Origin: Nereocystis luetkeana
Lineage: Eukaryota; Sar; Phaeophyceae; Laminariales; Laminariaceae
Length of the DNA: 64,000 bases
Direction of reading: 5' to 3'
Assembly: GCA_031213475.1 (NCBI GenBank)
Contig: JARUPZ010000034.1
Location: 3,433,114 to 3,497,113 of the forward strand
Shown: positions 13,256 through 44,006 of the stretch, one piece after another
Numbering within the stretch: position 1 is the stretch's first letter
Layout of the letters: every line of letters begins with the position of its first letter
Program-made: the position numbers and the translations under genes
Notes under the pieces: generated by a model
Database searches by the model: none
What the model was told of the DNA's origin: nothing
Seen by the model: the letters and a program-made list of their open reading frames with translations, nothing else

Positions 13256-14670
13256 ATCGAAAAAAAAAAATTCGTCAGGAGGTTGAATCCAAGCATTGCA
13301 CGGTACACATACTCTAGCAATGCAACATTCGCACGTCGGCAAGGCGCCCCACCGAACCCTTGATACGCGGGAGGGTCACACCACGAACACCAAGTGGGCA
13401 CAACGCAGCACCACTCGTACTCGAAGGTACGACGCAAAAAAGCGTCCTACAGTACGTCCAACTTGCTGGTTTTCAGGGTAACACTATGTCCGAAATGTAA
13501 GGATTGTTTTTACATATAAATATTTAATCTACATGGAGCTTATATTCTCGAATATGGTGGCATGACATGACACAACATGTCAACAAGATACTGGTACAAA
13601 GCAGGTCTACTTCGCAGGAGGCTTGAGTCGGAGTGGGATGTTCATGGTCGTTCGATGCGGCATCTCTGTCGCATGTAAGAGGGGCACACACCAGCATTTC
13701 CTGCTTCCGTCTCGATGGTCTCTTGCCACAGGCACAGGCTGCGCTTTTTGGGCAGCCTTGAGACAGCAGACAGCAGACCAGAGCTGCTGTTTGCTGTTGA
13801 GGATTTTTGTAATTTATGGGGAGTTCCATCCAGCGATGTAGGCACTACTGTGAGGGGGGGTCCATATCCCCCCGTTCGCGCGCAACCAGACTGCGCACAA
13901 CCCAAGCAGCTGTAGCCCACCCCGGGCACACTGCGCAGTGCGCAGCGTGCAGCAGGCAAAGACAAGGTGAGCTGCACCACTGCGCCGAGCTGAGCAGCCT
14001 CACTCGGTGTAAGCGGTCCTCTAAACAACCGCCTGGGTTTGTTGCGTGTGGTTGTTACTTGCCGCCCAGGGTGGCGAAAAGATCGGGCGGGGCGCGCACG
14101 CGAAAGATTCAGATTGCCACAAAGTTTAGGGAACCAACGGTGTGACGCCACTTCGTCCTTGAATTTACGGACATAACGTTACCTGCGTACCACTACGGTA
14201 CTGTATCTGGGATGAATACAGCGGTGCGAGTACACACATAGCAGATATATTCTGCTTGTCGTGGGGCAGCAAAACCTGCGGGATCGGTAGGACCGTAGCG
14301 CCTGGGTGCCTCCCTCCTGTGATGGCACCCGATGCCCCCGTCGCGAAGGAGCGCCCGCCAAGGATTCAAAATTCTGGGCTGGTGTATGCAATGGAAATTG
14401 AATTGGTTGTCGCCACCGCTGCGGCACTCCTATTACTAGAAGAGAGCGCGGGCGGAACCTAGGTCGGACTCGATCGTGCCTAGTCAGGGCGGAAGTGAAG
14501 AGTACAGAAATCGGAGAGGTCGATCTATCGCGCCATGGTTCTGGAGTCGTAGCGCTTTTTTTCCCGTCACTCAGTCCCCACTCTTGGTTTTCTCCTCCAC
14601 GCCAGGTCCATCATTATCCATCCTTTTGGTCGATGATTTTTCCATTCTTCATTTTTTCCTCAGATTGTCA

Positions 14671-14970
14671 ATTGCGTGGGTTCAAGTCTCACCGAGTGCA
14701 TCCTCGTAGAGACTTTTTCTTGCATAAAAAATGTGTTTTTCGTTTAAATAGCGGAAAGCGCGAGAGCGTGAGTTTTAGCTACATTGGATGAAAATGGGCG
14801 AGCAGTGGGTATGCTGAGCCCTATGCGCGACAAAAAATAAAGGCACCCATACACCGAGGGGGGGAAGGGGCGACACCTGTGACCACGGCTTGTCCAGAAG
14901 ATCGCTGAGGGTAAAACCTCCTACGAATTAGGCTGGAAAATAAAAGTGATGATTACAAAAAAAAAAAAAA
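14671..14970 (+). mobile_element. tRNA-derived SINE (family S-B), 5'-truncated, only in unit 2
   Basis: Begins inside the head at ATTGCGTGGGTTCAAGTCTC (B box kept, A box gone) and ends in an A run at 14956-14970. The body matches 11340-11630. In unit 1 the flanks are joined directly near 1300 (CCCAAATTGCA then AACAGGAAAGCTGG), so the insertion followed the duplication. Confidence 0.75.
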
Positions 14971-15442
14971 TGTATACGTACAGATTACCGGACACCTGTC
15001 TGCTGTAATAATAAACAGGAAAGCTGGTCGAGGCTGGATTTCGTAATTTTTTTAGAAAGGGTGCTTTCCACACGAAATATAATGCAATGACTTCCGAATT
15101 TGTTATTTTCCTCCAAGCCCGCTTTACTCATTGTTCGTTTCGTATTAATTAGGTGTCCGGTAAAGTACTAGGTATAATATGGAAGGTGAGAAATCAGAAA
15201 AGCGCCCGTGTTCTACGGATTCTGCCAACCATCGTCTCCAGTCTATAATATATACGTACTCGTATCCGAAATGAACCCTGTAATACTAGCCCACCCTGAA
15301 TAGACGTAGATGCCGATAATAGACCACGCCACGATCGAAGGATGGCAGATTTTACGTACTAAGCTACAGGGGGAAAAGACAGATGAAGTTTTCGCTACTT
15401 ATCTAGTACGTAGTTAAAGGCAAGAGGATCCTACCGCCTCCC

Positions 15443-15450
15443 TATACATA
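15443..15450 (+). promoter_or_regulatory. TATA-like box of the 773-aa gene
   Basis: TATACATA lies about 60 bp before the ATG at 15509, aligned with TATATATA in unit 1. The intervening leader is rich in CACCGCC and GTCGCCACC triplets in both units. Confidence 0.4.
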
Positions 15451-15508
15451 CAGATCCCCGTCGCCACCATCACTGTCGCCACCGCTATAAGCAGGAAGCA
15501 GTGACACT

Positions 15509-17830
15509 ATGGCCAGCAGCAACACCATGCCCACCATCGATCCAGGCGACCCTAGCGTCAAGGACATGGGTTCGGTGATGCTAGCCTTAGGAGCAGACTG
15601 CGTCGTGCTGTACTTTCATGGCCCCGAGCCCGTCAGCGGAACAAAGCTGGCATTCTTCCTGGTCATTCACGCGGCCCTCGCACGCGCGTCCTCTTGGAAC
15701 TTCCTCTCCGATGGGGCTGGGGAAGAAGAGCAGCACAGGGTCCTGTCGGCCATCGATAACTCCCAAGTCGGCGACAAGCCGCAGCACGAGATAGGCTCGG
15801 AGGCGTTTGGGCACAGGAAGAACGTTTTGGGTAGCCGACTTAAGGGCCAGTTCGACACTCGGTTGTGCATCGCCCGAGCATCCGACCCTGCGGAGGACGT
15901 TGCATGGTTTGTGAAGAAGATGGGAGGGGTGGTGGCGGCCAACCGCGACGTTGCTAAGCTCCAGCGGCGGCTGCAGGTCGCGGGAGATATTTGCCGTACC
16001 GCCCAGGAGAAGGAGGGAGTGGGGGAGAGGGAGGGGGAGGAGGAGTTTTCGGAGACGATGACCGAGGTCGACGAAGTGCTGCACGGTCGCCTTACTGAAG
16101 CCCTGTTGGCCACGCGGAACGCCGTGCTTGTAAGGTTCATGGGGCTTAACTCTCTGGCCTTGATGGCGGTAACGAGGCGTGTCGCCATTGAGGGTGGTAA
16201 TACGGCCGGCGGTAGCACCCGTGGTAGCACCGTTAATGGTGCCAGGCGCAGGGGCATGCGGGCGAGACTGTTGGCCGCGGAGACTTGTGTCGCGAGGCAC
16301 CAGTATAAGGGCGGAGCGTTGCGGAAGGCCGTGGCAGAGCGCGACGAGACCCGGGTGGCGGCTTCGGCGGCAAAACATGCGCTGGTAGACTTGGAGAGAG
16401 GGCGCCAGAAACGGGTCAAACAGCACGTCGAGCTTGCGAATATTTTGGGCACGCAGAGGCTGGAACGGCACGAAAGCAAGCAGGCAAGCGAAAGGCACAC
16501 GGCTGTGGTAGAGGGGGCAGAAAACGACGCTGATTATAAGTTGGAGGCGACGGGGCGTCACGAGGAGAAACTGAAGCTGTTTCGCCTGGGGGCTGAACAG
16601 AGGAAAAGGAGTTTCCGGACCGACCATGAAGAGATGGATTCGCGGGCCAGGACGATCTGGGCCAGCCCCAGTAAAAGGCCGACGGTGGCGGATCTAGAAA
16701 ACGAGAAAATAAAGCTGCAAGGAAAGCTGAAAGAGCTGACGGATTTCGCGAGGGAGGCAGAGGCTCGCATCGCGATTCTGTCTGACCAGCGGGAGTGCCA
16801 GCGGCGCGGTCCTCAACATTCAAAAGAGGAGGGCGCTTCGACCGAGGAACGTCCCAACCGACCGCCCCGGGGGCAACAGCAGCAGCACCCCGCGCCCGAA
16901 AACAACGGCCCGGCAGAAAGGAGTCGCAGGGGAGGCAGAGGAAGAAGGAGGGGCGGTCGGAGACCTCCCGCGGGGAATAGCGGTCTTTCTTCCGTCGCGG
17001 CGCGCACGCAGTCGTCTCGTGACACATCTCCCGCAGTCGAGGGCAGGGGGGCGATCAGTGGTGGTGTTGCGCTCGGAAGCCAAGTTAGCGCAGGCGTTGC
17101 CGGGGCATCCGCGGCGGGCGCCACCCGTGGGCTAGCATCGCCTCGTGGGCTCCTTCCTGTGCTCCCCGAAGCGGAACCAAAGGTGCCGACTTCCGGAAAC
17201 GTTGTTGACCACCAGGAGAAGCCAATCGTGGGAGAAAGCGGGCGGTCTGTTTCGACGCACGCGCCCCCTCAGCAGCCCCCCGCTCCTCCCGAACACCTCT
17301 CCCTTTTGTGCCGCCGCCTTGTTCGTGAAACGGAGGAGCCTTCATACTTCGTGGGGGGGGATACTCGTGGCGTCCGCCGTGGGGGAAACGCGCCCGCGAC
17401 TTCTTCGTCGACCCCTGCCGCGTGGCCGCCTGTTGCGCAACCGCCTGCTGCGCAGCTGCCTGCCGCTGCTGCTGGCGTGCAACCTTCTAGCACGCCCCCC
17501 GGCTTTGAGTACATGGTGGTGCCCGCCGGTGGTGTTTCTCACGGTAACCTCGCGGCAAACAGTGCGGCGGCGGCTGATGGTGGTGATGGTGGTGATGGCA
17601 ATGATGGACTACCCCGTACGCTGAAGGGCTTGCTGACACGTTGCGACTGTGTGCACCACCTCAAGCGGTTGGAGAATGCGGGCGTAACCGCGCGGTCAGT
17701 AAAAACGATGACATGTGCCCAGCTGAAACAATATGGCGTGGAGCCGGAGGTGCGTAATATTATCTCTTCAAATACACGCGACTTGTACGGTGGGGGAGGG
17801 TACCTATATTTTCACAGGTTACTCGCATGA
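15509..17830 (+). CDS. Orphan 773-aa protein with coiled coils, an RGG-type patch and a SAM-like C-terminus
   Basis: I do not recognise the family. It is one uninterrupted frame of 773 codons from ATGGCC to TGA, and the unit 1 paralog supports real coding history. Residues 1-260 form a mixed domain with no known motif. Residues about 270-425 are highly charged and heptad-rich, likely coiled coil. Residues 453-485 carry a Gln run and an Arg/Gly patch (RRGGRGRRRGGRR), which often binds RNA. The stretch 500-690 is Pro/Ala/Ser-rich and probably disordered. Residues about 699-750 (GLPRTLKGLLTRCDC.. to VRNIISS) have the spacing of a SAM-like helical domain: LENAGVTARSVKTMT then LKQYGV. No signal peptide or membrane helix is seen. 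A role as an RNA- or protein-binding scaffold is inference only. A TATA-like box precedes it. The RING gene 3.4 kb downstream was duplicated together with it. Confidence 0.75.
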   Translation: MASSNTMPTIDPGDPSVKDMGSVMLALGADCVVLYFHGPEPVSGTKLAFFLVIHAALARASSWNFLSDGAGEEEQHRVLSAIDNSQVGDKPQHEIGSEAFGHRKNVLGSRLKGQFDTRLCIARASDPAEDVAWFVKKMGGVVAANRDVAKLQRRLQVAGDICRTAQEKEGVGEREGEEEFSETMTEVDEVLHGRLTEALLATRNAVLVRFMGLNSLALMAVTRRVAIEGGNTAGGSTRGSTVNGARRRGMRARLLAAETCVARHQYKGGALRKAVAERDETRVAASAAKHALVDLERGRQKRVKQHVELANILGTQRLERHESKQASERHTAVVEGAENDADYKLEATGRHEEKLKLFRLGAEQRKRSFRTDHEEMDSRARTIWASPSKRPTVADLENEKIKLQGKLKELTDFAREAEARIAILSDQRECQRRGPQHSKEEGASTEERPNRPPRGQQQQHPAPENNGPAERSRRGGRGRRRGGRRPPAGNSGLSSVAARTQSSRDTSPAVEGRGAISGGVALGSQVSAGVAGASAAGATRGLASPRGLLPVLPEAEPKVPTSGNVVDHQEKPIVGESGRSVSTHAPPQQPPAPPEHLSLLCRRLVRETEEPSYFVGGDTRGVRRGGNAPATSSSTPAAWPPVAQPPAAQLPAAAAGVQPSSTPPGFEYMVVPAGGVSHGNLAANSAAAADGGDGGDGNDGLPRTLKGLLTRCDCVHHLKRLENAGVTARSVKTMTCAQLKQYGVEPEVRNIISSNTRDLYGGGGYLYFHRLLA

Positions 17831-18620
17831 GCACCTACAGTCTATAGCTCTATGCCTCACCCCAAAACCCAATTCATTAAAAAATTGCACGCGTACTCCG
17901 ACGGTAAATCCCATTGGCTAGGCTTATCGCAAAAAGACCTTTACACGTACGCACTACTAGATAGAACTGCAAAGATGTTGGGAAGTTCCTCAGTTTAGTA
18001 TGAATAAGATAGGAGCCCCTCCAGTCGATTGTTTTGTGCCCACGCGCACCTCCTCTACCGCACTGTAGAGAAATGTTTCGAACCCTAAGTGAGAAGAGCG
18101 GTAATATCGAAGTGTGAGGGTGCCGCATACGATAGTTCATGCTGTGTATATGTCGCTCATATCGTACAGATCCTTGCATTCGTTGCATTGGAGCCCGACA
18201 CTAAAAACACCAACTATTGACACAAAATTCACCAACCCCTGACCCAGCAGCCCGCGTCGTATCGTTTGACCGATGCTGTGATCAGTCATTGTTCCTCTTC
18301 AACTTTTCTCTCCGAAGTCCAAAAAGGCTTGACTAAGAATAGCAGTTCCATATGGGTCGTGTATAACATCTCAAAACATCAGGTTAGGCTCAATGATTTG
18401 TCTGTAGATGATCTATCTGTAGATGGTCTATCTGTAGATGATATATCTGTAGATGATATGTCTGTAGATGAAGAGCAGGGAGGTACCTCTCTCGTTTTCG
18501 TATGTGTCTGGTTGTTGGCAACATCGTTTCGCGCTTTCGCCTTTCTTGTGGTCTAGATTTTCTGTTTTGTCGTCATGTTTTAGGTTATTGACACTCACGC
18601 TACACATTGCCAGATGCCAA
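17831..18620. other. 3' flank of the orphan gene, no further gene seen
   Basis: Aligns with 5000-5830 of unit 1 in patches (CGCACTGTAGAG; CCAACCCCTGACCCAGCAGC). It contains the 15-bp array at 18399-18475. No poly(A) signal could be assigned with confidence. Confidence 0.5.
18399..18475 (+). repeat. 15-bp tandem repeat
   Basis: Five units of TCTGTAGATGATCTA with small changes. It reads as LSVDD repeats in one frame, but the surroundings do not support a gene. Confidence 0.85.
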
Positions 18621-19007
18621 ATTAAGTAATGCTATGCTTACCCCTCCTTCCTCTCCTCCCCCTCCCACCTGCCCCCCCCCCCCCCTCCCCCCACCCGCCC
18701 CCCCCCCCCCCCCCCCCCCTCTCCATCTCCTGAAAGTGTGAACGATGGAGGATTCTCTTTTCGATGCGGACGGTTGAAGAAGATTGCGCAGTCTGCGTGG
18801 TCGGAAAAATCAACGTGAGAGGGCGAAGAAAATATTGAAATGACGACGTTTGCCGACTCGCCTCGTGTTGGAGTATCGTATCGGGAGTTGCGACATACCG
18901 GTATCGAATTATTTAGCTTTCGAGAGATGCGTCGCGTCGAGCTTTCGACATGTCGATCTCCTTGAAAATAACACTTGGATCGATTCACAATATTTTAGTG
19001 CCAGGCA

Positions 19008-19045
19008 TGCAACTACCAGGTATGCAACTACCAGGTATGCAACTA
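19008..19045. repeat. 15-bp triplicate containing TACCAGGTA
   Basis: CAACTACCAGGTATG occurs in tandem and is followed by CAACTAACATG without the CCAGGTA part. The unit therefore looks like CAACTA-TG plus the micro-insertion, later copied in tandem. Confidence 0.8.
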
Positions 19046-19266
19046 ACATGCAATTTACTCCAACGTCATTCCGGGATGCGTGTGAAACAAAAAAACAAAA
19101 CGACTCGCCAATTTTCGTTTTTTAGTCCAGACGAGGGGGGTATGCTAAAACCAAGTACAGTAGTAGGTCACCCTTTTCGAGGAATCCTAGTGCGTTGGAG
19201 ATTGGAGATCGCTTATATAGGCACTACCGTCCCTTATCCGAGTCGGTACCGGCCCCTTACAGTCAG

Positions 19267-19384
19267 TATTACGGGGGGCCATAGTTAATACCCTGGTAGG
19301 GCCTATGGTATACATAAAAACCTATATATTTAACCATTATTACTAACAATATTTTGGTCCTATTAAGTATGGTCTCCCGTAACA
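19267..19384. mobile_element. MITE family M2, copy 3, with a micro-insertion
   Basis: Ends are TATTACGGGGGGCCATAG and ATGGTCTCCCGTAA. Compared with the family, TA at 19289-19290 is followed by an extra CCCTGGTA (19291-19298). Confidence 0.85.
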
Positions 19385-19469
19385 GTGGATAAAAATGGTG
19401 GGTAGAGGTGTTGATATCCCTTGCACTGGTATACCGTTTTCCCTCACGGCGGGGTCCCATAACCCTTTT

Positions 19470-19585
19470 ATTACGGGGGGCCATAGTATATAGGGCCAAA
19501 TATTGTTAGGAAAAATAGGTAGATATATACTGGTAGGTTTTTGTGTGTACCGTAGGTCCTACTAACTATGGTTCCCCGCAATAGT
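19470..19585. mobile_element. MITE family M2, copy 4, with a micro-insertion
   Basis: Ends are ATTACGGGGGGCCATAG and TATGGTTCCCCGCAATA. An extra CTGGTA follows the TA at 19528 (19530-19535), where other copies read TATAGGTTTTTG. Confidence 0.85.
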
Positions 19586-19591
19586 ATACCA

Positions 19592-19680
19592 GGGTAGCAG
19601 TCCAGTTTTGGGGACAAGTTAACTTGGAATTTTTTAGTGGCTTGTCCTCAAACGGGACCGCAGTTTGCCCGAAAAGGGTA
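19592..19680. mobile_element. MITE family M1, copy 3
   Basis: GCAGTCCAGTTTTGGGGACA faces TGTCCTCAAACGGGACCGCA. It is diverged, with outer ends partly lost, and lies directly after an M2 copy. Confidence 0.7.
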
Positions 19681-19951
19681 ATAAATGGGGCGCCCTACTG
19701 TACGGTAAACACAATTATATAAAGCAACATGTTTTAGTTCTGAAATATCACCATTCTGGTTGGTTTCCCATTCCGGCCTTGGGAAGGAGTGCGGGGGGGT
19801 GTGCGGGTGCCATACCTAGTGTCGACAATGCCACGTGCAGAGGTACTGAGCCCAGGCTAGGTAGCAGGATGCGATTGCGCAGTGCGGGACGGCCCGTTTT
19901 ACTGCTGTGCGGGTTGACCTCGGGTTCCTCGGGAGGGGTGTGTTGATATGC

Positions 19952-20066
19952 TATTTCGGAGGATCATACTGGTAGTAAAATAGGACCCATTATTGTTAGT
20001 AAAAATAGGTAAATATAGGTTTTTATGTGTACCATAGGTCCTACTTACTATGGTCCCCCGTAGTAT
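19952..20066. mobile_element. MITE family M2, copy 5, with a micro-insertion
   Basis: Core GTTAGTAAAAATAGGTAAAT and right end TATGGTCCCCCGTAGTA. The left arm has an extra CTGGTA after TA (19969-19974). Confidence 0.85.
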
Positions 20067-20389
20067 TGTACGCTAATAGCTTGCTAGCACATCTCCAGAA
20101 GAACTCTGAACGAGTAGGGGCAAGGGATCGCCCTTGCCGATTGTCGTAAAGTATCTCCTCCACAAGAGCCGAGGGGAACCGAGGATACCGTGACAAGTGT
20201 CGGTCGTTTCCTCTTCTTTTCGAGCAACCCTGTCATTTGTTGTTCCTTTCATGTCACCCACCACTATACCCTGTCATCGGTCGGGTTGAGCTTTCAATAC
20301 GTCGTCATTTTGAGCCATCGGTATTGTATCGGCCTAGTCGAGCGTGGTTTGCCCTCAATCATCTGGCACCGCCTGTGTCGTTTACGCTG

Positions 20390-21180
20390 GTACAGAACGA
20401 AATATTCGACGTATGGATCGGATGCACAATATCAAAATCGCATTGATTATTTTTTTGGGGTTGTTGATATCGATGTATATAGCAAAATGAAGGTTTGCAC
20501 AAGGGAGGAGGGGGGTGCAAGGAGGAGCCTTCAAGAGGGGAAAGTGGCATATAATAGACTCAAAGCGATAGAAGGAAAGCTACTGCGTTCATCGAGGACA
20601 TTATATTTATATCGGACTAAAACATGTTGGATACATTCATCGTCGGAGGAAAAAAATTGACACATCGATACTCGAGCTACAGCCGTATAGAGATTCGGCC
20701 GGAAGTACAGTAGATACAGAAGGGAGTTAGACTTAGTGCATACATACGTAGGTTTCCTTTATTTTTCGGTTTCCCTTGGTTTTCTTCGTTCGGAGAATAT
20801 TTCTTTGTGAGTGGTCAACATTAAAGCTTATGCTGCACATTATCGGATGGCAAACGCATAACAATACGTCGAAGATCGAAATTGCATCGAATGGTTTTTT
20901 GCCTATCGGTTTCGATGTATGTGTCGAATGTCCAATATCGAAATTGCATCGGCATTTTTTAGTATCAATATCGATGTATATTTCGAATATCGCAGGCGCA
21001 TCGATTGGTTTTTGGTTGTCGATATCGGTGTATAAATCGAATATCAAAATCGCGTTAATTGATTTTTGGTTATCGATATCGATATGTATATCAAATATAT
21101 AATGTCGAGGTCGCAACGATTAGTTTTTTTGTTGTCGATATCGATATGGATACATCAAATGTCGAAGTCGCGAAAGTTTT
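20390..21180. repeat. TATCGATATCGAT-rich minisatellite, unit 2
   Basis: Same family as 8470-9185. Clear units from about 20865 onward carry TTGTCGATATCGATGTATAT and TCGAATATCGAAATTGCATC with periods near 60 bp. It ends in a T run and AG that may serve as the acceptor of the first RING exon at 21187. Confidence 0.75.
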
Positions 21181-21186
21181 TTTTAG

Positions 21187-21602: not shown

Positions 21603-21639
21603 ATCGAAACACGCCTTTTTGGCCTTTGCGAGTAGCGCC

Positions 21640-22560: not shown

Positions 22561-22599
22561 GGGATGGGGGACGGAGGCAAGGTTGGCGCAAGGTGGACG

Positions 22600-24140: not shown

Positions 24141-24231
24141 AACCCTCTTAGGACTGCAGTCCCGTTTGGGGGGCAAACTATTAATAGTTAGAACTTGAGT
24201 TGTTTGTCCCCAAAACAGGACTACAGCAGTC
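24141..24231. mobile_element. MITE family M1, copy 4, with a TTAATA micro-insertion
   Basis: AACCCTCTTAGGACTGCAGT faces GTCCCCAAAACAGGACTACA. Its left arm reads CAAACTATTAATAG where the family has CAAACTA, so TTAATA was inserted at TA. Confidence 0.8.
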
Positions 24232-25470: not shown

Positions 25471-25839
25471 AGTACAAAACCAACCCACAATGAACGTATA
25501 CCAATCCGTCCCTAAATATAAGCACCGCTTTGACTGAATATTGATACCTGGTATACAAAACGTCGTTCTATTTAGGAACAGAGATACATTTACCACAGGC
25601 GCGGCAAGCAGATCCGACCCTACCGCTTCGGCACGTATCACGACGTATCAGGTGTAAACCTACGTACATATACAATACACAAGTATCCGTCAGCATGCAT
25701 ACACCCTTTTACCGATTGTCGAATGAACACGAGTGTGAGTATACTGCACAAACAAAAAAGGCTGCACTAACCCCAAGCAGTTTTCCACAAAAAACGGCAT
25801 GCAGCTACTCCTACAAAAACGTGTGCACCGGGGGGAGAT

Positions 25840-26905: not shown

Positions 26906-27059
26906 GAATATCCCGCTGGTGCTAGAGGGCACTACCAGATCGTTTGATGCGTTGTAAAGGCCCCGGCAATCAAGTTTCAGCGCTGTTCTATCTCCCGTGT
27001 CTCAACTTGGGGACGAGCCCTTGGGTCAATCGTGGACTCGCCCCCAATGGGGACCGGTT
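26906..27059. repeat. 154-bp near-identical dispersed repeat, copy 1
   Basis: From ATATCCCGCTGGTGCTAGAG to CCCAATGGGGACCGGTT, it matches 28798-28951 with one difference (CTGTTCTA against CTGTTTTA). The copies are in the same orientation, 1.9 kb apart. There are no TG..CA ends and no inverted ends. Confidence 0.9.
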
Positions 27060-28797: not shown

Positions 28798-28951
28798 AAA
28801 TATCCCGCTGGTGCTAGAGGGCACTACCAGATCGTTTGATGCGTTGTAAAGGCCCCGGCAATCAAGTTTCAGCGCTGTTTTATCTCCCGTGTCTCAACTT
28901 GGGGACGAGCCCTTGGGTCAATCGTGGACTCGCCCCCAATGGGGACCGGTT
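28798..28951. repeat. 154-bp near-identical dispersed repeat, copy 2
   Basis: See copy 1 at 26906. Flanks differ on both sides (GACTGAAA before, CGGCGGGAGG after). Confidence 0.9.
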
Positions 28952-31947: not shown

Positions 31948-32076
31948 ATTACGGAGGACCATACCTGGTAGTCAACAGGACCAAATGTTGTTAGTAAAAA
32001 TACGGAAGTACAAAGGTTTTTGGGAGTACCATAGGTTCTACCAGGTACCAGGTATTTACTATGGTCCCCCGTAATA
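31948..32076. mobile_element. MITE family M2, copy 7, hit by two micro-insertions
   Basis: Left arm CCATA is followed by an extra CCTGGTA (31964-31970). In the right arm TA at 32039 is followed by CCAGGTACCAGGTA (32041-32054) before TTTACTATGGTCCCCCGTAA. A further TACCTGGTA lies just outside at 31935. Confidence 0.9.
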
Positions 32077-33145: not shown

Positions 33146-33149
33146 AATG

Positions 33150-33470: not shown

Positions 33471-33479
33471 CATAACCGG

Positions 33480-34040
33480 ATCCAGGCGAGAAGCGGGATT
33501 AATTTCGCGCGCATCATGCGGAGATGATGATGCTACTGTCGTGGATGAGCATGTGATGGCGAGATGACGAGTAGAGCTATTCAGAGAAACATTATGGGAC
33601 ATGTTAGCTAATAGCTATTGGTGATGCGTCTCGTGAAGAGACTCGCAGATGAATGATGACACCCAGTGATCGTGAGATACGCTTGCGTTGCTCAATATAA
33701 CAGAAGAGAGAGAGAGATAGTTTGGAAGGTGGCGCCTATGTGGCCGTGCTCAAGAGAGCGGTGATGATGGAGAGTGGTGGGAGAGTGCTTACATCTCTGG
33801 TGCGATCACCTGGGGTGATCACGTTGGTGGTAGCGCATAACTTATTCTACACGTCCCCATGATATGATACTGCTGTGTCAGTACGCCAGTATACCCCTGT
33901 ATTTCAGTATCCTGCGATGCGATATACTACGAGGAGTTGTATTCTGCATTCTCCTATGATAACTGTCCTACAGACGTGACAGTAGTACAGTCTACCTGGT
34001 ACAGCAGTAGCTGTCACTCGTGGTGGAGTGCGTTAGTGCC
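33480..34040. other. No gene seen
   Basis: Unique spacer with TACAGCAGTAG and TACCTGGTA micro-motifs at 33990-34010. Confidence 0.5.
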
Positions 34041-34044
34041 AGAC

Positions 34045-34440
34045 ATCAGTTCGAGTTAGATCGTTTGTGCGAGGTGAACAACCTTTATTCCGCACAAGGG
34101 GGAATGATCGTCAGACGTACCGGGTAGTGTTTATGTCAAGGCACCCAAGAGGCAGTTACATAGTGCTTCCATTGCTGTCTCTGGAAATAAATGCCTAAAC
34201 CGGAAATTAAATTTACTCATTGGAGCTGTCATCCGTATGCAAGTCCGCTTCACAAGAGGTTCTTAGTAGGATGCAGCTCACCCTTCATGCGACTCGCCGG
34301 ACACCTCACGGCGCGTCGCGCTAGGTGCAAACAATATCTGCCTGGTCGATAAAACTCCCACGTGCTCCGTCCCGGTATTGCAGGGATGCGAGGGTCTATG
34401 GTCATACGACTACGGCCATGCAAAATATCGAGTACACTCC
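34045..34440. repeat. Dispersed repeat R1, copy b, with a micro-insertion
   Basis: Matches 6940-7320. Where copies a and c read CACGTA(G/A)TG, this copy reads GACGTACCGGGTAGTG: CCGGGTA was inserted at TA (34120-34126). Confidence 0.8.
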
Positions 34441-34454
34441 CCCCCCCTCCCGAC

Positions 34455-34690
34455 TACGGTGCGCGCGCCTAGCATTTTTATCACGAGAAGGGTTTGGCAC
34501 TTTCTTCCCGTTGCCGAGTCGCGTCGAGCTGCTCTCACCCGCGTTGATAGTGCTATCGGCAGTTGCGGTTGGTGTCTCACGATAAATGAAAACTCCATGC
34601 TGTCCTCGGATGGACACCCGCAACATTTACGTATTCGAGGCTAACCACTACCTGGTACCTGGTAGACTACCGGGGCGACCGGCTAGGGTA
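34455..34690 (-). mobile_element. SINE family S-A, copy with a split A box
   Basis: The body part shares TTTTTATCACGAGAAG and CGAGTCGCGTCGA with the copy at 32121. On the minus strand the head reads CGCCCCGGTAGTCTA, then an inserted CCAGGTACCAGGTA, then GTGGTTAGCCTCGA. The insert (34651-34664 on the plus strand) falls inside the pol III A box. Confidence 0.7.
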
Positions 34691-35292: not shown

Positions 35293-35756
35293 AGAAGGGT
35301 GTGGGGGTGTCTTAACTCCTCCAAAAAGCACGAGAACGAGCGGAACGGAACGAGGCTGCTCGTGGTAATTCGTTCCGTTTCTATGTAAAAAAAACGTGGT
35401 CGGGCCCATTCATAAACCTGGGCTTCGCCAGCCGACTCAGTACGAACGCCATCTGTTGCACATGCCACGACGCCAACACCCTGGTGTTGTGCGCAAATTG
35501 GTGTCCACGTCCATCTTCGGTGGTGTACATCTACATCAAATGATATGCTTTTTGTCCCCGTTCGGTCCGGCCGTTCGATCCTCTCAAACATGAAAAAGGG
35601 GTGCAAATTTCTTCTTCCTCTTCCAAGATAAACCTTTTTTTTCGGGCTGCACTGAATCTATTCGTTTTCCATATCCAATCAGCACCAGTTCATGTGGCAG
35701 ATAACATTCCCTTCGGTTCGTTCCACTTCTCTCTGGGGGAGTTAAGACACGCTCTA
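35293..35756. mobile_element. TIR element family M3, copy 1
   Basis: About 460 bp, bounded by AGGGTGT..GTGTCTTAACTCCTCCA on the left and TGGGGGAGTTAAGACACGCT on the right. It matches the inverted copy at 36882-37315. The interior shares GGTGTCCACGTCCATCTTCG and AACGAGCGGAACGGAACGAG. No transposase frame, so non-autonomous. Confidence 0.8.
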
Positions 35757-36349
35757 AGTTCCGATTTTAGTACGAATTACCTGGTATACATACCGTAAAG
35801 TGTAAATTGTACCCAAGGTATTAGCTATTTGGAACCCGTACCACTACACCACTATACTTTGTCCAGAAATTGAAGGTCCATCTAGGTCTTCATATAATAC
35901 CCTGGCGTCCCTTAAATTCCCGGATAAATAGGTGATTTTTACTGACTGGTCTTTTGCGATTATATATGGAGCTCGTACACGGTTGATCTTGGGACAGCCG
36001 CAGTGGTTATTACAGCAGTGGTAGTGCGGAGGGAATTCAATGCATACCAGATAGTCGGTCGGTGCTCGCTGATCGCTTGGTGCTCATAGCTGGGAACGCT
36101 ACCATCTTCTTCTTTATCGTAGTCAAATTAGCCGACAACTCTCCAAATAATCTTCCTCCTATGCTCGTTGGTGGTCCTCGACAAGAACCGAAGGCAGACG
36201 TTACAGTGGTTCATAAGAATGAGTTGGCAGTACCAATGTCGAGATCACGATGAGAACCCATACTTCTCGATGTATCACTATCGTGCTACGTATAAGTACT
36301 GACTTCGCCGTTGCACGCCTCCCCCCTTTGCCCCCCCCCTCCCTACATG

Positions 36350-36400
36350 CTACCGTGCATGAGATCGAGTGCATCTCTCCTGTCGAGTATACCCCCCCCC
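36350..36400. repeat. Solitary end fragment of repeat R1
   Basis: GTGCATGAGATCGAGTGCAT and TCTCCTGTCGAGTATACC between C runs; like the fragment at 9747. Confidence 0.55.
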
Positions 36401-36414
36401 CCTTTATATTAAAG

Positions 36415-36860
36415 ATAAGCTGGGTTGGCGTCGGTTGGCAACGACACTGTAAAACATGCCGCTCACTACGTATGCTAGACAAACAGGGTACCGTTTTTTT
36501 ATTGTGGGCGGTCGGTCACAGCTGACGATCTAATTTGATATTTTGTGTGAGGTGAAGAACCTTTACTCCGCACACGGCAAATGATCGTATCACGTAATGT
36601 TTATGGTAAGGCACCCACGAGGCAGTTATGTTGTACCCCCATTGCTGTCTCTGGAAGTGGTCGCACCGAAAAACATATCAACTCTTTGGCGCTGTCACCC
36701 ATATGCAAAGTCGCCTCACAAAAGTTCTTAGTAGGATGCAGCTCACCCTTCATGCGACTCGCCGAACCCCTCACGGCGCTTCAAGCTTGGTGTAAGCTAG
36801 GTCTGTCTAGTCGATGAAAAGCCGGCATGCTCTGTCCCGTCATTGTAGGAATGCGAGGAA
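36415..36860. repeat. Dispersed repeat R1, copy c
   Basis: GGTTGGCGTCGGTTGGCAAC, CTTTACTCCGCACA, TTAGTAGGATGCAGCTC and GTCCCGTCATTGTAGG match copies a, b and d. It is ancestral to the C duplication, because copy d sits at the same relative place. Confidence 0.8.
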
Positions 36861-36881
36861 AATGAGCACGCTCCCACGCTG

Positions 36882-37315
36882 AGGGTGTATCTTAACCCCC
36901 CCCAGAGAGCATTGGAACGAACCGAATAGAGTATTATTTACCGCATGAATTGATGTTGATTGGTTGTGGGAAACGAATAGATTCAGTGCAGCCCGAGAAA
37001 AACAGTATATCTAGGAAGAGGAAGAAGTGTTGCACCCCTGTTTCTTGTTTGGGAGGACCGAACGGCCCGACCGAACGGGAACAAATAGCAGATTATTTGA
37101 TGTAGATGGACACCACCGAAGATGGATGTGGACACCAATTTGCTTTGGCATGTCCAAAGATACCGTTCGTGCCGATTCGGCTGGCGAGGCCCAGGATTCT
37201 GCATGGATGGGCCCAAACACGTTTTTTTAGGTAGGAACGGAACGAATGACCACGAACAGCCTCGTTCCGTTCCGCTCGTTCCCATGCTCTTTGGTGGGAG
37301 TTAAGACACACCCTA
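36882..37315. mobile_element. TIR element family M3, copy 2, inverted
   Basis: Ends are GAGGGTGTATCTTAACCCCC and TGGGAGTTAAGACACACCCT. The interior is the reverse complement of copy 1 (CGTTCCGTTCCGCTCGTTCC; CCACCGAAGATGGATGTGG). The two copies could form a hairpin with a 1.1-kb loop. Confidence 0.8.
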
Positions 37316-37968
37316 AAAGTACTATTGCGTGTAGGGGACCTTGACCTGCTAGAAAGAAGGAATATGTTCACCGGCAGCCGGGAGGAGGAGGAAGTAGATG
37401 CACAGATGTGCCCGTGTGGCAAAGCAATAGAGAGTAGAACTTACAGTTGGAGAATGTGAAATTTTACAAGGAGGAACGGCATGTGTCAGAAGAGGAGATG
37501 GGGAAAATAGAAAAAAATTACATGGAGAAGTTTGGTACACTACCTGTAGACGGTAGCGAGAACACAACTCGAGCGCCATCCTACGGGAGGTAGATGGTAT
37601 CCGTAGGCGGCGAAACAGGAAGGGGATAAGATTCACAAAACCATTCATGTGAAATATATGGGAACAGCCTAATGAGCGCCCATTTGATGGAGGTGCATCT
37701 ATCAGGAGTAGGAACGGTTCCCCGCCTCGAAAGAGATGCGTGGTCAACGGTCTAATGACTGAGGCAGGCAACAAATGAGTACGCCCCCGCCGCTCCTCTC
37801 TCCCCCTTCCCCCTCGGCCCTTCTCCCCCCTCGCCGCCCACAATGTATGAAACCAAACCTCCCGGCCCCACCCCGTCCCTCCCTGCTTCCCGATCCGACC
37901 AGGAGAGAGACGACCACGAAGAAACTCATTAGGTGTGATCTACTAAAACAAGGCAAAGTGCGTCCACG

Positions 37969-38394
37969 ATGGCCCACTTGGCGTCTGGCTGGATGATGTC
38001 CCCGTTGACCTTCTTAGTGCTCGAAGCGACCGCGTTCCTGCTCGGGGTTGTGTCCCTCGTCTGCTGGAAGAATCGCAGAACCGCCTGCCTGCTCGTGCTG
38101 TGCTCGGCCCGACGGCTCTGGTATCTGGCGACGGCCTTCGTCTTGCTGGTGATGGCCCACAACCCCCTCCTCGGAAAATCCCATGATGGGTCCAGGAAAC
38201 CCGTTGTGGAACAGCCTGCGCCGCTGCTTCGCATTTGGCAGACGCAGACCGAGCCTATCCGTACCCCGTCACCGACTGTAGCCCAGTCCGCGGTGAAAGA
38301 TAAGGAGGAGGGGCCTAAGAAGGTGGAACGCAAGGGTTTCCGTGAAGCCTTCTTGGAAGAGCTCGGTGACCCTCTGGATTGGCCCTGGTACTAG
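37969..38394 (+). CDS. Small membrane protein with the FREAFLEELGDPLDWPWY tail
   Basis: 141 codons in one frame, ATG in the context CACGATGG. Two hydrophobic segments are likely membrane helices: about residues 11-33 (PLTFLVLEATAFLLGVVSLV) and 55-70 (LWYLATAFVLLVMA), with Arg-rich ends between them. Residues 75-120 are polar and Pro-rich. The last 18 residues are identical to those of the protein at 46968-50069, although the rest barely aligns (RKPVVEQ against RKPIVVQ is the other shared part). I do not recognise the family. The tail could be a docking motif facing the cytosol. It lies in duplication copy C1, and decayed tail copies follow downstream. Confidence 0.65.
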   Translation: MAHLASGWMMSPLTFLVLEATAFLLGVVSLVCWKNRRTACLLVLCSARRLWYLATAFVLLVMAHNPLLGKSHDGSRKPVVEQPAPLLRIWQTQTEPIRTPSPTVAQSAVKDKEEGPKKVERKGFREAFLEELGDPLDWPWY

Positions 38395-38399
38395 GCGGC

Positions 38400-38985
38400 G
38401 AGGCGTTCGAAAAAAGGGTGGCCGTTTTTTTCTGAACGTAAAGTGGGTGCAGGCTGCGTCGGGAATAAGGAGAAGTACAACGCTGCACGAAAAACATCCT
38501 CGGCAGACCCCGGCGACCCCACGTTTTGTCCCTGGTACTACGAGTACTGTAGGCGGATGGATTTCTGGTGTGACAATTTCTCCGAGCATAATTGCAGCGT
38601 CATGCGGTTGGTGGCGGCAGTGGAGGGTGGGGGGACGGCGGAGTAGTAGGAGGAGGACAGGGAGGGGGGAACAAGGGGTCGAGGAGGAAGAGGAAGAGGA
38701 AAAGGAGGAGGTGATGGAGGAGGAGGAGGAGGAGGAGGAGGGGGAGGAGGAGGAAGATGAGGAGGAGGAAGATGAGGATGAGGCGCAACAGCAGGAGGAA
38801 GAAGAGGAAGCAGAAGAGGAGGTGGAGGAGAGTACCGAACCGATGGAAGACAAGGGGGGAAGCTTGAATACCCTCGGCGATACCCGCCAAAATCAAGTAC
38901 AAGACAAACAGACAAGTGTTCTTGGCAGAGCTCGGCGCTCCGGTGGTTTGGCCCCGACAATATGTTCGTAGGCGGATGCTTTTCT
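38400..38985 (+). pseudogene. Decayed downstream copies of the tail and acidic region
   Basis: After the stop of the 141-aa gene the sequence continues like the larger paralog, but disrupted. Near 38509-38540 a second tail reads GDPTFCPWY and continues past the expected stop because CGAGTACTGTA was inserted there. 38660-38850 encodes a Glu-rich run like that of the paralog. At 38919-38963 a third tail reads FLAELGAPVVWPRQY, in a different frame from the Glu-rich run. Each tail is followed by a GGCGG..GGTGGCCGT-like 3' flank. This could be remains of the larger gene or alternative last exons. Pseudogene is the simpler reading. Confidence 0.55.
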
Positions 38986-39120
38986 CGGGGTGGCCGTGGC
39001 TCAAAGGGTCCGCCGGGTAGTTGCAGGGTCATGTGATTTGTTTATACCTTTTCGGCAGAAAATAAACTTCGATGTTCACCCCGCGTCGTTGTGTGTGTTG
39101 TGCATGCTGTGCTCTGGTTC

Positions 39121-39543
39121 TTGGTGCTGCTGGTGATTTGGTGTTGTTGTGTGACGATGTGTCGTGGTATATGCACGTAGTAGTAGTGAGCCACTGGGTT
39201 GAAGAAGTGAGGCAGACAGACGGATATATTTGTATATATACTTCGAAGTATAAATTTATGGTCTTAGGGATCGAAGTAGACTGGGAATTTTGCTCGTACA
39301 GGTCGAATTAGGAACCACCAAGGAAAAATGGCTTGTGCTGCTGGTGATTTGGTGTTGTTGTGCGACGATGTGTCGTGGTATATGTACGCAGTAGTAGTAG
39401 TGAGCCACTGGGTTGGAGAAGTGAGGCTGACAGACGGATATATTTGTATATATACTTCGAAGTATAATTTTCTGGTTTTAGAGATCGAAGCAGACTGGGA
39501 ATTTTGCTCGTACAGGTCGAGTTAGGAACCACCAAGGGAAAAT
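39121..39543. repeat. ~211-bp tandem duplication
   Basis: Units 39121-39331 and 39332-39543 share GCTGCTGGTGATTTGGTGTT through TCGAATTAGGAACCACCAAG with scattered substitutions (roughly 90% identical by eye). TTCGAAGTATA palindromes lie in each. The short frames in it restart in each unit and are not convincing genes. Confidence 0.85.
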
Positions 39544-39549
39544 GGCATT

Positions 39550-40400
39550 TTATCGCATCTTGTGTTTTTTGTTCGCTCCAAAACGCCCACCGCGTGTAAT
39601 GATTGGTGCAAGAGTTGACGACGCACGAATATGTGTCATCACAGCGGAGGGTGTTCGCACGGCTCACAATGCTCCTGGGCATCACCACCCGAAGCAGCGA
39701 GAGACAGCACAACCAACTATGGTTCGAGACATTGGCTTTATCGTATACACCACGGGTTACCTGGAACACACGTGTTATATTCTGGTAAAAAAAAAAAACT
39801 GGGGCTTGTACGTAGTGATGATAAGAAAACACGAAAAAAGTACCTGGTACGGCCACGAGTAGTACGTGTGGTACGTCGTAGGGGCGCGGTAACGAAAATA
39901 TATGTACCAAATACCGTATACGGCAGGGTACGCCTTGACGCCTTTGGTGTCGTGATACAATGAACACGAAAAAACATACCTAGTGTGTAGTAACCCCCAA
40001 TCAGAGGCGCGCTTGAATACAACGGCAGACAACTGTAGTAACAAGGCAGCATCGTGATTCATCTGCTGTTCTTGTATGCGCACTGCAACATTTACGAGTA
40101 TCATCAATACAAGTAATCCCTCAAATTAGCCTTATTTTAGCACGTAACAATGCCATATTTTACTCTCCGTTAGTCGGGCCTTATCATTGCGCAAAATGCT
40201 TACCAGGTACCTGGTATGAAAATTGTCCTGTTGACCCAGGTAGCATCCAGGGGACCCACTGAACTACAGCAGTATATCCTCCTTAACAAGGAATTACATA
40301 CACATCACTGTATAGAATACGCGCGAACGGCCTATCATACAACTTGTAGAATTCGGTATTAATAGTGTAATTCTACCTGGTATTTTAGTAGATAAATACA
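39550..40400. other. No gene seen
   Basis: Overlapping short frames only. TACCAGGTACCTGGTA, a perfect 16-bp palindrome of two micro-motifs, lies at 40202. Confidence 0.45.
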
Positions 40401-40409
40401 CCATGAATT

Positions 40410-40760
40410 GTGCTCAACCCCCATACGTCGCGTTCGAAGTGTTCCCTTCAGGTCGTGGTCGCGCCGCTTGCCCGCCTTCCCACACACAGCTTGTACGAAT
40501 AAAAACTCTCAACCAGAGCCCTCCAGACGAATCCTTCAAAGAAATGTTGAACTCCCAGAATCCAAACGGAAATGGAAAATTCGAAAATTCAAATAAGCCA
40601 CACACGGCTGCCAGGCAGATCGTCACTGTTCGCTGAGCCTGGCGCACGAGCAAAATCGCACGCACTTCTCGCACAGGGGCACAGACAGGTGGGGTGGGCG
40701 GTCACTTTTGTGTCAATTATGAAACGTTCCGTCGTTAACTCCAGTTCTATGGTCGGAATA
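40410..40760. repeat. Dispersed repeat R2, copy 2
   Basis: Counterpart of 33150-33470; CCCTCCAGACGAATCCT, GAACTCCCAGAATCCAAACG and GGTCACTTTTGTGTCAAT keep the same order and spacing. Confidence 0.65.
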
Positions 40761-40769
40761 GAAGGCGGC

Positions 40770-41620
40770 CGGGAGAGCAGGAATCGGAAGGTTTTGCGTG
40801 CATGGTGCTGAGATGCTGTGGTCCGCCGATCGAGCATGACGAGTAGAGTACAGCGTGTACGTTGTAGACTGCTGTACCAGGTATATAGAAGAATGTTCGA
40901 AGTTAAAAGTTAAAATGACCATTGCAGCATAATAGCCCATGCAATGCGCCCGGACTGCTCGAGGTAGGCAGGGTATGCACTATGCGTGTGTCCGAGTTGC
41001 AGCGTAAGGTGAGAGTGTACAGCTGTACGTACAGTAACCCTCCAAGTATAATGCCGGTATCAACATGCGCCAGGCAACAATACCGGCACTATATAGCGGC
41101 AACCGGCACTACTCCGCATACTGCCACACTGGTTAATCCCGTCTGTGCCAAGCGATTTCATCGGCACTATAGCGGGCAGCCGGCAATACTCAACCGGCAC
41201 TATAGAGGGACCGCTACTACTGCTGTGTACCACAGGTACAGCTGCACGACCACGCGCGCAACGCTGCGATGACTCTTCTTACACTGCTTTGCGGCAGGCG
41301 CTTGGCGCTTGAAAATTGACTCCCACGCGTCGATTTTTCGATTTTTCGATCGATATTTATTTAATATCTCATGGTGTCCCAAGAGTCCAAGAGGGCTAAA
41401 CTTTGCGTGCGCGTTGTTACGCGGTGCTCGTGTGTCATGCACAACGCTGCCACTGCTGTGCCTGAGCTGCTGTTGTACATGTATGTGCTCGCCTATATGT
41501 ACCAGGCACCACTTTGCCCCTAAATGTAAGGATTTTTTATTGTATTAATACGTAATACAATAGGTTCCTATATTTAGGGACAGAGTGGTATATAGGTATA
41601 AAGCAGAATAAAAATCCAGC
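40770..41620. other. No gene seen; CCGGCACTATA motif cluster
   Basis: 41060-41215 holds several CCGGCACTAT(A) phrases with variable spacing, a possible short degenerate repeat. No coding support. Confidence 0.45.
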
Positions 41621-41625
41621 CTGGG

Positions 41626-41805
41626 CCAGCTGTTGAGATCACCATCGAATGATCGTGAGAAGGATCTAATGCTGTACTTGTACTATTAATAATACTACTG
41701 GTATATAGGTGTATTATAATCAACGCTGTCGAAATCACCATCGAATGATCGTGAGAAGGATCTACTGCTGTACTTGTACTAATACTACTGGCACAATACC
41801 TGTAG
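41626..41805. repeat. ~96-bp tandem duplication with a TTAATA difference
   Basis: Two units share ATCACCATCGAATGATCGTG and AGAAGGATCTA..GCTGTACTTGTAC. Unit 1 reads GTACTATTAATAATACTACT, unit 2 GTACTAATACTACT: unit 1 has TTAATA added at TA (41686-41691). Confidence 0.85.
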
Positions 41806-41809
41806 GACT

Positions 41810-42420
41810 GCATACTTGTTTCACGTGACTTCGGTGGTGGCTGTAAAAAAAAAGTCGAAATTATGCAAGAAAAGCTCTCCGATAAGAATGGCCCTTAGAA
41901 GGCTTTAGTTTGGGCATGTTAACCTTTTACCAGACTACTGGCATTGCCATAGAAAAAAGTGCTGTCAACACGAGGGGACGGGTGGGGTCTGTTCTCCCGG
42001 CATGCCTCGCCGCGCCCCGTCCGGAACAAAGGTGTCGCGTTTGTGCGCGAAGGGTGTAGCTGCGTTTAAACCCTGTGGGGGGAATACTTCCCCTGCCGGC
42101 TCGCTGGCCGCCGGCAGTAAGCCAGAGGCCGAGGGAAAACCCGTGACTGCACGTTGATCGGAAGGGGCATCGGGATGAGCAAAAATCTAGGCGTTTCTTC
42201 GTCAATGGCGCAAAGCGGGGGGTTCCGACCGGTCTTGCTTGCAGACGTATAGAGCGGAGCGCCGCCATGGAACTCTTAACGGGGACTTCCCTAGCGGCAC
42301 CTCAAGGCGACCGTCTCACCGGGAAAGGAAAGCTCGGGCGTGGCAGAAGGCTGTGATGGAGTGTTGAGAGGCGCATGCAAACGACCAGCAATAGTGTCGT
42401 TTTTGCGAGGGAAGGGCAGC
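41810..42420. other. No gene recognised
   Basis: GC-rich stretch (41930-42400). A 113-codon minus frame has no recognisable domain. Confidence 0.4.
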
Positions 42421-42424
42421 GAAA

Positions 42425-42640
42425 ATCACGCCCGGACCCCGCGATAAAAATCCTATAGGGGGAGGGGGGTAATGTTGGCATTACGACTTTTGTCGTCTAC
42501 GCGAGCGGGGGGGGGCAGCGTCATACGCGCCCCGGCCGTGAGGTGAAGCCCCTATATGGGGGGGGGTTAACGAGACGTTACAATTCTTGTCGCCTACGCG
42601 AGGGGGGGGGGCAGCGTCATACGCGCCCTGGCCCTGCCTT
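42425..42640. repeat. ~110-bp tandem pair with G runs
   Basis: Both units contain CTATA.GGGGG, TTGTCG(T/C)CTACGCGAG, a G run and CAGCGTCATACGCGCCC. Units start near 42425 and 42537. Confidence 0.75.
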
Positions 42641-43740
42641 AAAATATGGACAGACTGAGGCGAGACTCGTCTAATAAAAACAACAAGGATGCTTTGTCTC
42701 TCGAGAGTGCTGCAGATGGGACTGGGAGGTGAGGGGAACCACCATTGGGCGGTCGGCCGCTTCCGGAGCGGAACGCCCCCGGCTGGCATCCATCGGGGTT
42801 GGTGTTGTTTTCATTGTGCGAGGCGCCGATTCGTATGCCAGGGGTTCCACTGGCCGAGGTCGTGGCCGGAGGAGTTCCATTGTCGGGTTGGTCCATAGTG
42901 AGACCGAGGTGTGCGTTTTCTGTGCTCCGGGCGTCATGTCCGAGCTCAAGAGGCGCGTGGTTGCCGTTTTTTCGTGGGGCAAGCCTTGGCGCTAGTTATC
43001 TTGTCCTTTGTTGAGCGAATATGTTTTCGCGAAGGCACGTACGTGTTGCCTCCTCCGTGGTAGTTGCGATCGCGGTCGTTGCCGTTGCGTCGCGAGGAAA
43101 GTTCTACGACGGTCGGAGGTAGATGACGAGCGCGTGTTTTCGCCGCCTAGATAGTCGTCACGGCGGCGGTGGGACCGCACGCGCTGCTGCTGCTGCTGCC
43201 AGCGACGGTAGGCGTCACAATCGTCGCCGAGTTGATCTAGCTGGGGGTTAAGGCAACTCCTACATACCGTTGATGAAAGGTTGCGGATCAGTGTTCGAAA
43301 TAGTGACCAGAAGTACCGTGGGAATGCAAGCGGCGACCTTTGCGCTTTGTTGTCGCGAAAGGCTTTCGCGCGCGCCTCGGGAGTAAATATTGGACGGCGT
43401 CCATAGCGTGGGATCATTGTTCTGGAAATATTCAGAGACGTGGCGCTCTGCTGTCTCAGTCAGACGGGTCAGACGGCCAGTGGTGCCGAGTGTGAGAAAA
43501 CGGATCGGAATCATAGTGGTCGGCATGCAGGGGCGACGCTCGTAACGACAGGGTTGCGTGAGGAATCCACGCGTTCCGAACGGGACGATGGATCGGTAGG
43601 TCTACTCTGAGAGCGATTTCCTGCATGTGGCTGCAAAGAAAGGACCCGCCATAGGGGGGCAAAGAAAAACATTTTTCTCCGCTTGTAGCGCTTGTAGCGG
43701 GAGTTCCATTCGTCGCCATGGTCTGAAAAGACAAGCACAT
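42640..43740 (-). other. Unrecognised coding-like block
   Basis: Several overlapping minus-strand frames (43456-43740, 43260-43526, 42992-43417, 42671-42982) cover 1.1 kb with balanced, non-repetitive composition, unlike the simple-repeat frames elsewhere. Seen features: a start with MCLSFQTMATNG, a Gln run and Arg-rich patch (RRWQQQQQRVRSHRRR), and a Pro/Thr-rich end. There is no zinc knuckle, protease or polymerase motif. It could be a decayed orphan gene, a gene with introns or the remains of a mobile element; I cannot tell which. Confidence 0.3.
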
Positions 43741-43887
43741 GGATCCAATGGAGACAGAAAGGGTGGGCGCAGTGGCTAAAACATCCGGATATTGCGTCGC
43801 TCGGGGTACTGGTTCATTTCGCTACGACGAACCAGTTCCAAAACCGTCGAAACACTGGGATAAAGTATATGCTCGGAGCCCGTTACA

Positions 43888-44006
43888 CTATTACGGGGGG
43901 GCTTATTAATTAGAACCTACGGTACACACAAAAACCTACCATGGTATATATTTACCTATTTTCATTCACAAGATTTGGTCCTATTTACTATGGCCCCCCG
44001 TAATAG
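43888..44006. mobile_element. MITE family M2, copy 8, with a micro-insertion
   Basis: Ends are TATTACGGGGGGGCTTATTA and ACTATGGCCCCCCGTAATA. CCATGGTA was added after TA at 43937 (43939-43946), where sister copies read CCTATATATTT. Confidence 0.9.

Follow-up and report, generated by a model that had tools for sequence, protein, structure and literature searches.

Which process could have left the same nine-base word, TACCWGGTA (W being A or T), at 35 places in a 64,000-base window of the Nereocystis luetkeana genome (contig JARUPZ010000034.1, positions 3,433,114 to 3,497,113; this whole stretch is called the window below)? Our analysis suggests, with a probability of about 0.78, that these words are the excision footprints, or scars, of a DNA transposon of the cut-and-paste type whose target is TA, whose ends would begin with 5'-CCAGG and whose overhangs would have five nucleotides. 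The evidence comes from the abundance and the strict TA boundaries of the word, from insertions that are private to single copies of repeats, and from the variants and the decay of the word.

A TA-bounded word in excess

The word occurs as TACCAGGTA (18 times) and TACCTGGTA (17 times), that is once per 1.8 kb, against an expectation of 0.55 under an order-3 Markov model (Poisson p ~3e-50) and a mean of 0.33 with a maximum of 3 in 200 dinucleotide-preserving shuffles. The excess over chance claimed in a preliminary description of this DNA is therefore real, and the eight strings quoted there were all found at their positions. Its estimate was forty or more motifs, truncated forms included; to the 35 perfect words counted here, variants, truncated and six-nucleotide forms among them, add TACCGGGTA (2), TACTGGTA/TACCAGTA (9) and CCCTGG, CCATGG and CCAGGG (1 each). 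Scar words are also found outside the interval given at the time (13441-43946), and they are most frequent, at 11, in the 8-kb bin 56001-64000.

Two controls tie the excess specifically to the arrangement TA-CCWGG-TA. The window holds 173 copies of CCWGG in all, and among all 256 pairs of flanking dinucleotides TA..TA accounts for 35 occurrences and the runner-up for 5. When 60 permutations of the interior were counted between TAs, CCAGG (18) and CCTGG (17) stood out from the remaining 58, none of which exceeded 3 and which sum to 15. No clear consensus was found outside the flanking TAs, where the bases resemble those beside any TA with a slight A/T richness at +6 to +8 outward, and the sequence common to the scars starts and stops at TA. 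Chance or composition is ruled out as the cause by the Markov model, the shuffles, the flank pairs and the interior permutations. An origin as copies of one dispersed repeat is likewise ruled out for most words, since their flanks differ: merging instances with similar 12-base flanks lowers the count from 35 to 33, and a pairwise comparison of outward flanks (2356 pairs, 16 bases) gave 2 pairs with at least 11 matches where 0.7 were expected. None of the 35 words lies in the coding parts marked (1.7 expected), which is not significant.

Insertions private to single repeat copies

The clearest case for insertion is the M2 family of miniature inverted-repeat transposable elements (MITEs). Insertions were found in five of its eight copies; there are six such events, including a double one, and they fall at only three positions. 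Each position is filled differently in two copies with no such addition in the other six. The paired fill-ins are CTGG at 19528 and CCATGG at 43937, CCCTGG at 19289 and a double CCAGG at 32039, and CTGG at 19967 and CCTGG at 31962. Different fill-ins at one position argue for separate repair events. The TA itself is missing from some of the unfilled copies, and the copy at 44265 aligns raggedly at one of the positions.

The same pattern was looked for among 121 scar-like words of nine classes, each of which was removed by a script before the window was searched for a homologous stretch across the site. Such a stretch was present elsewhere in the window for 26 words (13 of CCWGG type and 13 others), and insertion status was judged by eye from the best three partners per site. 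Of the CCWGG-type sites, whether perfect or variant, 11 of 13 have at least one partner that lacks the insertion (8951, 13589, 19289, 19528, 19587, 19967, 31962, 32039, 32046, 34118 and 43937). They represent 10 places, 32039 and 32046 being the halves of one double scar. For 10 of the 13 sites a partner shows just one TA at the joint, for 19587 the partner has CT, and the alignments at 25545 and 26026 are too poor to judge. This answers the concern of the preliminary description that the insertions might be common to all copies of a repeat. Among the 13 sites of other classes, five resemble insertions (1081, 8840, 13448, 15257 and 24179, of which 13448 has a partner with AA and 8840 aligns at only 69%) and six are uninformative (14199, 21379, 31361, 38539, 50710 and 52890). 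Self-alignment of the window gave 172 merged gaps of 3-20 bases, 13 of which were labelled TA-X-TA by a mechanical rule (7 of CCWGG type, 2 TTAA and 4 others). The TA insertions are thus a distinct class of gap without being the majority, since low-complexity or poorly aligned sequence accounts for most of the other gaps.

Decay and relative age

Words that differ from TACCWGGTA by one mismatch number 28 against 12.5 expected, and those that differ by a transition 17 against 4.4, so the scar word decays mainly through transitions. As a rough figure, the change since scar formation amounts to about 5% per site. This is less than the divergence of the repeats in which the scars lie, as two tandem units are about 72-84% identical in their longest matches and the MITE copies about 72-86%, and it is in line with scars that arose later than the divergence of those copies.

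A possible origin by transposon excision

That the words work like excision footprints of a TA-specific transposon is well supported by these observations, from which we infer the element itself, its ends, the five-nucleotide stagger and the transposase family. The element would insert at TA, duplicating the TA, and its inverted ends would start with 5'-CCAGG. On excision the transposase would cut one strand at the TA and the other five bases inside the element, so that each flank would be left with the 3' overhang CCAGG. The facing, identical overhangs could pair via their outer C-G pairs with a single central A-A mismatch, and end joining with mismatch repair would then produce TA-CCAGG-TA or TA-CCTGG-TA. 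Trimming or incomplete pairing might give CTGG/CCAG, CCATGG (CCA+TGG), CCCTGG and CCAGGG; CCWGG and the M2 variants can all be written as the start of CCAGG plus the end of CCTGG. The ends CC(A/T)G..C(A/T)GG put forward in the preliminary description agree with the scar variants. Words that share a TA would find an explanation as well, because each scar would restore two TAs that are open to repeated attack.

Other TA-bounded words

CCAGG ranks first among all words of the form TA-X-TA in the window, and several others also exceed expectation, which the preliminary description did not remark on: TTAA (13 vs 0.78), CAGCAG/CTGCTG (8 vs 0.25), CGAG/CTCG (TACGAGTA/TACTCGTA; 15 vs 2.0), CWG (27 vs 8.3) and CG (33 vs 13). 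The short words weigh less, because even CA and CCA top the shuffle maximum in the weaker dinucleotide-shuffle control. GATCA (8 vs 0.29) appears to belong to a local GATC-rich repeat. The CGAG/CTCG, CAGCAG/CTGCTG, CWG and TTAA words are probably traces of further element families. Two words of the CCWGG, CGAG, CAGCAG or CWG classes have a TA in common in 8 cases, against a crude expectation of 2.2. TATTAATA was found at 13 sites (e.g. 24179, 41684 and 61080), of which 24179 and 41684 resemble an insertion of TTAATA at TA.

Candidates for the causative element

A search for TA-flanked inverted ends (24 nucleotides, at least 19 matching, up to 4 kb apart, simple sequence filtered) returned 33 pairs, comprising M1 and M2 copies, the inverted repeat near 35.3-37.3 kb and a repeat at 54418-54614. 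This last, a TA-bounded inverted repeat of 197 bases, carries TACCAGGT in both arms but was rejected as the source, as its ends start with GGTTTTG and not with CCWGG (they read TAGGTTTTG...). Ends anchored on CCWGG words (20 nucleotides, up to 6 kb apart) matched at best at 15-16 of 20 positions, and we attribute these matches to double words, to AT-rich sequence or to a repeat confined to the region of 59.5 kb. With CAGCAG words as anchors, 16 of 20 positions match for 40265-41774; beyond the word itself the similarity is no better than chance (at least 8/12 in 2 of 112 tail pairs, 0.3 expected), the stretch was not accepted as an element, and eight open reading frames (ORFs) in or near it gave no match in Pfam. 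Half sites, TACCWGG lacking the closing TA, number 30 on the two strands and have no clear common continuation. In IMG/VR, one 20-base word each from M1 and M2 had no exact match and one protein of the window (P0001) gave 5 pattern matches without a relative. TACCWGGTACCWGGTA is present in nine IMG/VR stretches, eight with just two overlapping words and one with three, which we take as chance; a GTDB match (L010) was a chance match of 20-26 bases with no TACCWGGTA in 8 kb.

Weighing the explanations

The excision-footprint reading of the preliminary description is sustained by the TA boundaries, the near-palindromic interior, the private insertions, the differing fill-ins, the length variants and the transition-rich decay, and several points weigh against it. 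The Tc1/mariner-like element named there as the likely source is a candidate. The window showed no recognisable element whose inverted ends match and start with CCWGG, and no transposase was found among the 58 ORFs scanned with Pfam (out of 285 stop-to-stop ORFs of at least 85 amino acids), in which Ribosomal_S8e was the only family above cut-off; a transposase gene could lie elsewhere. The commonest scar length is 5, outside the figures printed in the passages concerned for Tc1/mariner transposons, namely footprints of 2-4 bp (PMC7913693) or, for Passer, 0-4 bp (PMC9976928) and overhangs of 2 or 3 bp (PMC3878927). The recurrence of insertions at the same three M2 positions requires either that the element prefers these targets or that the copies inherited an element already inserted there and lost it in separate excisions; both could explain the shared positions. 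Two sites of other classes are no private insertions, 2337 being a substitution within an ORF and 11577 being nearly identical in its partner. The perfect word at 54441 has a counterpart, TACCAGGT, at the corresponding place in the opposite arm of the 197-base inverted repeat; the word could be ancestral at this site, both arms deriving from one word-bearing copy, or both arms may have been hit alike, and we count it as a site without support for insertion. Furthermore, the TA-X-TA ranking includes GATCA, CAATCCG and CATCGA, which are not near-palindromes, AAAGGGT is likewise off-pattern, and the CWG words show a flank preference (G 0.46 at +1). The evidence as a whole comes from a single 64-kb window.

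Short GC-rich palindromes spread in some organelle genomes, and the unit found here, CCWGG plus TA, might similarly be an ultra-short palindrome that is itself copied into TA sites. Its near-palindromic and TA-bounded form, the three pairs that share a TA and the lack of a recognised longer element in the window would suit such copying. However, four of the six M2 events are non-canonical (CTGG twice, CCCTGG and CCATGG), which argues against faithful copying and is as expected from end joining, and TA-bounded words of 3, 4 and 6 nucleotides are in excess too. We therefore regard a self-spreading palindrome as improbable. It is very unlikely that selection has multiplied or maintained the word as a functional motif, for instance a binding site: an exact, repeated near-palindrome with 0 of 35 instances in the marked coding parts would fit a motif, but whole seven-base insertions at TA that are private to single repeat copies would not, nor would the transition-rich decay and the shortened and lengthened variants. 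Ancestral variants of the repeats, or an assembly artefact, would require the word to have been lost by deletion from the copies without it. The sites 2337 and 11577, which are shared or substitutions, and the matched word at 54441 are compatible with this history, whereas in M2 six of eight copies have no addition at each of the three positions and the filled two differ, so that a precise deletion would be needed each time, and 33 of the 35 words persist after merging of similar flanks. As an account of the words in general we find it scarcely credible.

Excision from TA sites is thus the reading that we prefer, and a wider version of it is offered tentatively, as a possible but doubtful extension. 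A TA-specific activity of this lineage, either an undescribed element or a domesticated transposase, might make breaks with a five-nucleotide stagger and mark roughly one TA in ninety with a near-palindromic micro-insertion of seven bases, with no recognisable elements left here, and the genome might then be a readable and datable record of excisions by several families of different ages. Were the excision reading to hold throughout the genome, the scars by themselves would allow past transposon excisions to be counted and dated, even for elements that have since disappeared. A comparison of intact scars with their variants and with the empty sites of diverged repeats would provide direct data on stagger length and host end joining, and a stagger of five nucleotides would widen the described range of 2-4. 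As scars create new TAs, and with them new targets, a simple feedback would result.

Local features

Exons of the cytosolic ribosomal protein eS8 on the minus strand (about 56140-58730) identify the window as eukaryotic DNA. In the eS8 intron of ~2.3 kb (about 56241-58523) lie three perfect words and one each of TACTGGTA/TACCAGTA, the CAGCAG type, TATTAATA and TACWGTA. The two tandem units lie within 1-22600, 12-13 kb apart, and hold diverged gene copies for an unknown protein, with ~84% identity in the longest match; Pfam gave nothing above cut-off for this protein, which we take to have a possible SAM-like C-terminus. Between two M2 copies there is a transfer RNA (tRNA) match at 44099-44179 (Rfam, 35.3 bits, gathering threshold 29), where ARAGORN predicted no tRNA. 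An inverted repeat at 35303-37313 with arms of ~455 bases, 80% alike, flanks a copy of repeat R1 and is possibly a fold-back element. A direct repeat (26907-27059 and 28799-28951; 153 bases, 99% identical, starts 1.9 kb apart) might represent the ends of a small element of the long terminal repeat type. A glutamate-rich repetitive ORF of 1041 codons spans 46944-50069; close to its end, at 50.0 kb, the DNA has a match around 38.3 kb. At 9513, 18698 and 54014 lie runs of C or G (21, 22 and 26 bases), and poly-C words are far over expectation in the window.

Table 1. Positions of individual scar words in the window and the corresponding stretches without them.
Position	Word	Location	Comparison
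1081-1087	TACAGTA	unit 1	single TA in unit 2 (within 14444-14529)
8951-8959	perfect scar	unit 1	absent from three homologous stretches within 20858-21146, two with TA at the joint
12085-12101	TACCAGGTACAGCAGTA, CCWGG and CAGCAG words with common TA		same pair at 33993-34009
13589-13596	TA-CTGG-TA	tandem unit 2	absent from homologous stretch of unit 1 (within 119-257)
15257-15264	TACTCGTA	unit 2	single TA in unit 1 (within 1679-1766)
19289-19298	TA-CCCTGG-TA, six-base scar	M2 copy	
19528-19535	TA-CTGG-TA, four-base scar	M2 copy	same position as 43937
19587-19596	TA-CCAGGG-TA	adjoining M2 copy	absent from homologous stretch at 12168, CT at the joint
19967-19974	TA-CTGG-TA, four-base scar	M2 copy	
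24179-24186	TATTAATA	inside M1 repeat	extra TTAATA absent from the best three partners of 22 matches
31962-31970	TACCTGGTA, perfect scar	M2 copy	single TA in copies at 7936 and 12172
32039-32054	TACCAGGTACCAGGTA, double scar	M2 copy that also holds the 31962 scar	14 bases without counterpart in copies at 7936, 12172 and 19944
34118-34126	TA-CCGGG-TA	repeat R1	single TA in R1 copies at 6934 and 36529
34649-34664	TACCTGGTACCTGGTA, double word		
40201-40216	TACCAGGTACCTGGTA, double word		
43937-43946	TA-CCATGG-TA, six-base scar	M2 copy	same position as 19528, other fill-in
56314-56327	TACCAGGTACAGTA, CCWGG and CWG words with common TA	eS8 intron	
57513-57521	perfect word	eS8 intron	
57742-57750	perfect word	eS8 intron	

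Comparison with known transposon footprints

TA on both sides of the footprint and one TA in the empty site, the form expected in the Tc1/mariner/IS630 group, are both found in the window (TA..TA 35 vs 5 for the runner-up; single-TA partners at 10 of 13 sites). The mariner element Mos1 has ends that begin with CCAGG and leaves the footprint CCA/TGG. These terminal bases resemble the ends proposed here, whereas the Mos1 footprint, TACCATA/TATGGTA, shows little excess in the window (13 vs 9.8 under the Markov model; shuffle mean 5.4, maximum 12), and a Mos1-type footprint was set aside. The footprint of the Tc1-like element Minos, which we take to be TAcgagTA/TActcgTA, matches the 15 TACGAGTA/TACTCGTA words; its core has four nucleotides, and in the window these words form a class separate from CCWGG. 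For Minos, PMC6980720 describes alleles in which excision left 4, 6 or 8 additional bp.

In the excision model described for Tc1/mariner, the transposase makes its cut in the non-transferred strand a few nucleotides into the element, and the overhang, sealed in by end joining, stays behind as a footprint (PMC8151067; PMC3878927; for the footprint mechanism also PMC2874221). Sleeping Beauty leaves C(A/T)GTA, as stated in PMC3878927. Two CAG overhangs paired with one mismatch would yield this footprint, an argument of our own, and the same pairing logic applied to ends of CCAGG with a five-nucleotide stagger would predict CCAGG or CCTGG. Sleeping Beauty and the scars in the window have in common the TA target and an odd-length near-palindrome with a central A/T, but differ in length (3 nucleotides vs 5) and in the outer bases (C..G vs CC..GG), as far as the relevant passages of PMC3878927 and PMC8151067 go. 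ISY100, of the IS630/Tc1/mariner family, is similar in its TA target and its staggered cut inside the element, but has a stagger of 2 nucleotides and a rejoined donor site TATATA, as given in a section of PMC2170065. Among the matches listed in a search of the open-access PMC literature, nothing was found on a genome marked by such footprints or on TACCWGGTA as a scar. Compared with these systems, the five-nucleotide form of the scar, the density of scars and the mixture of classes look new.

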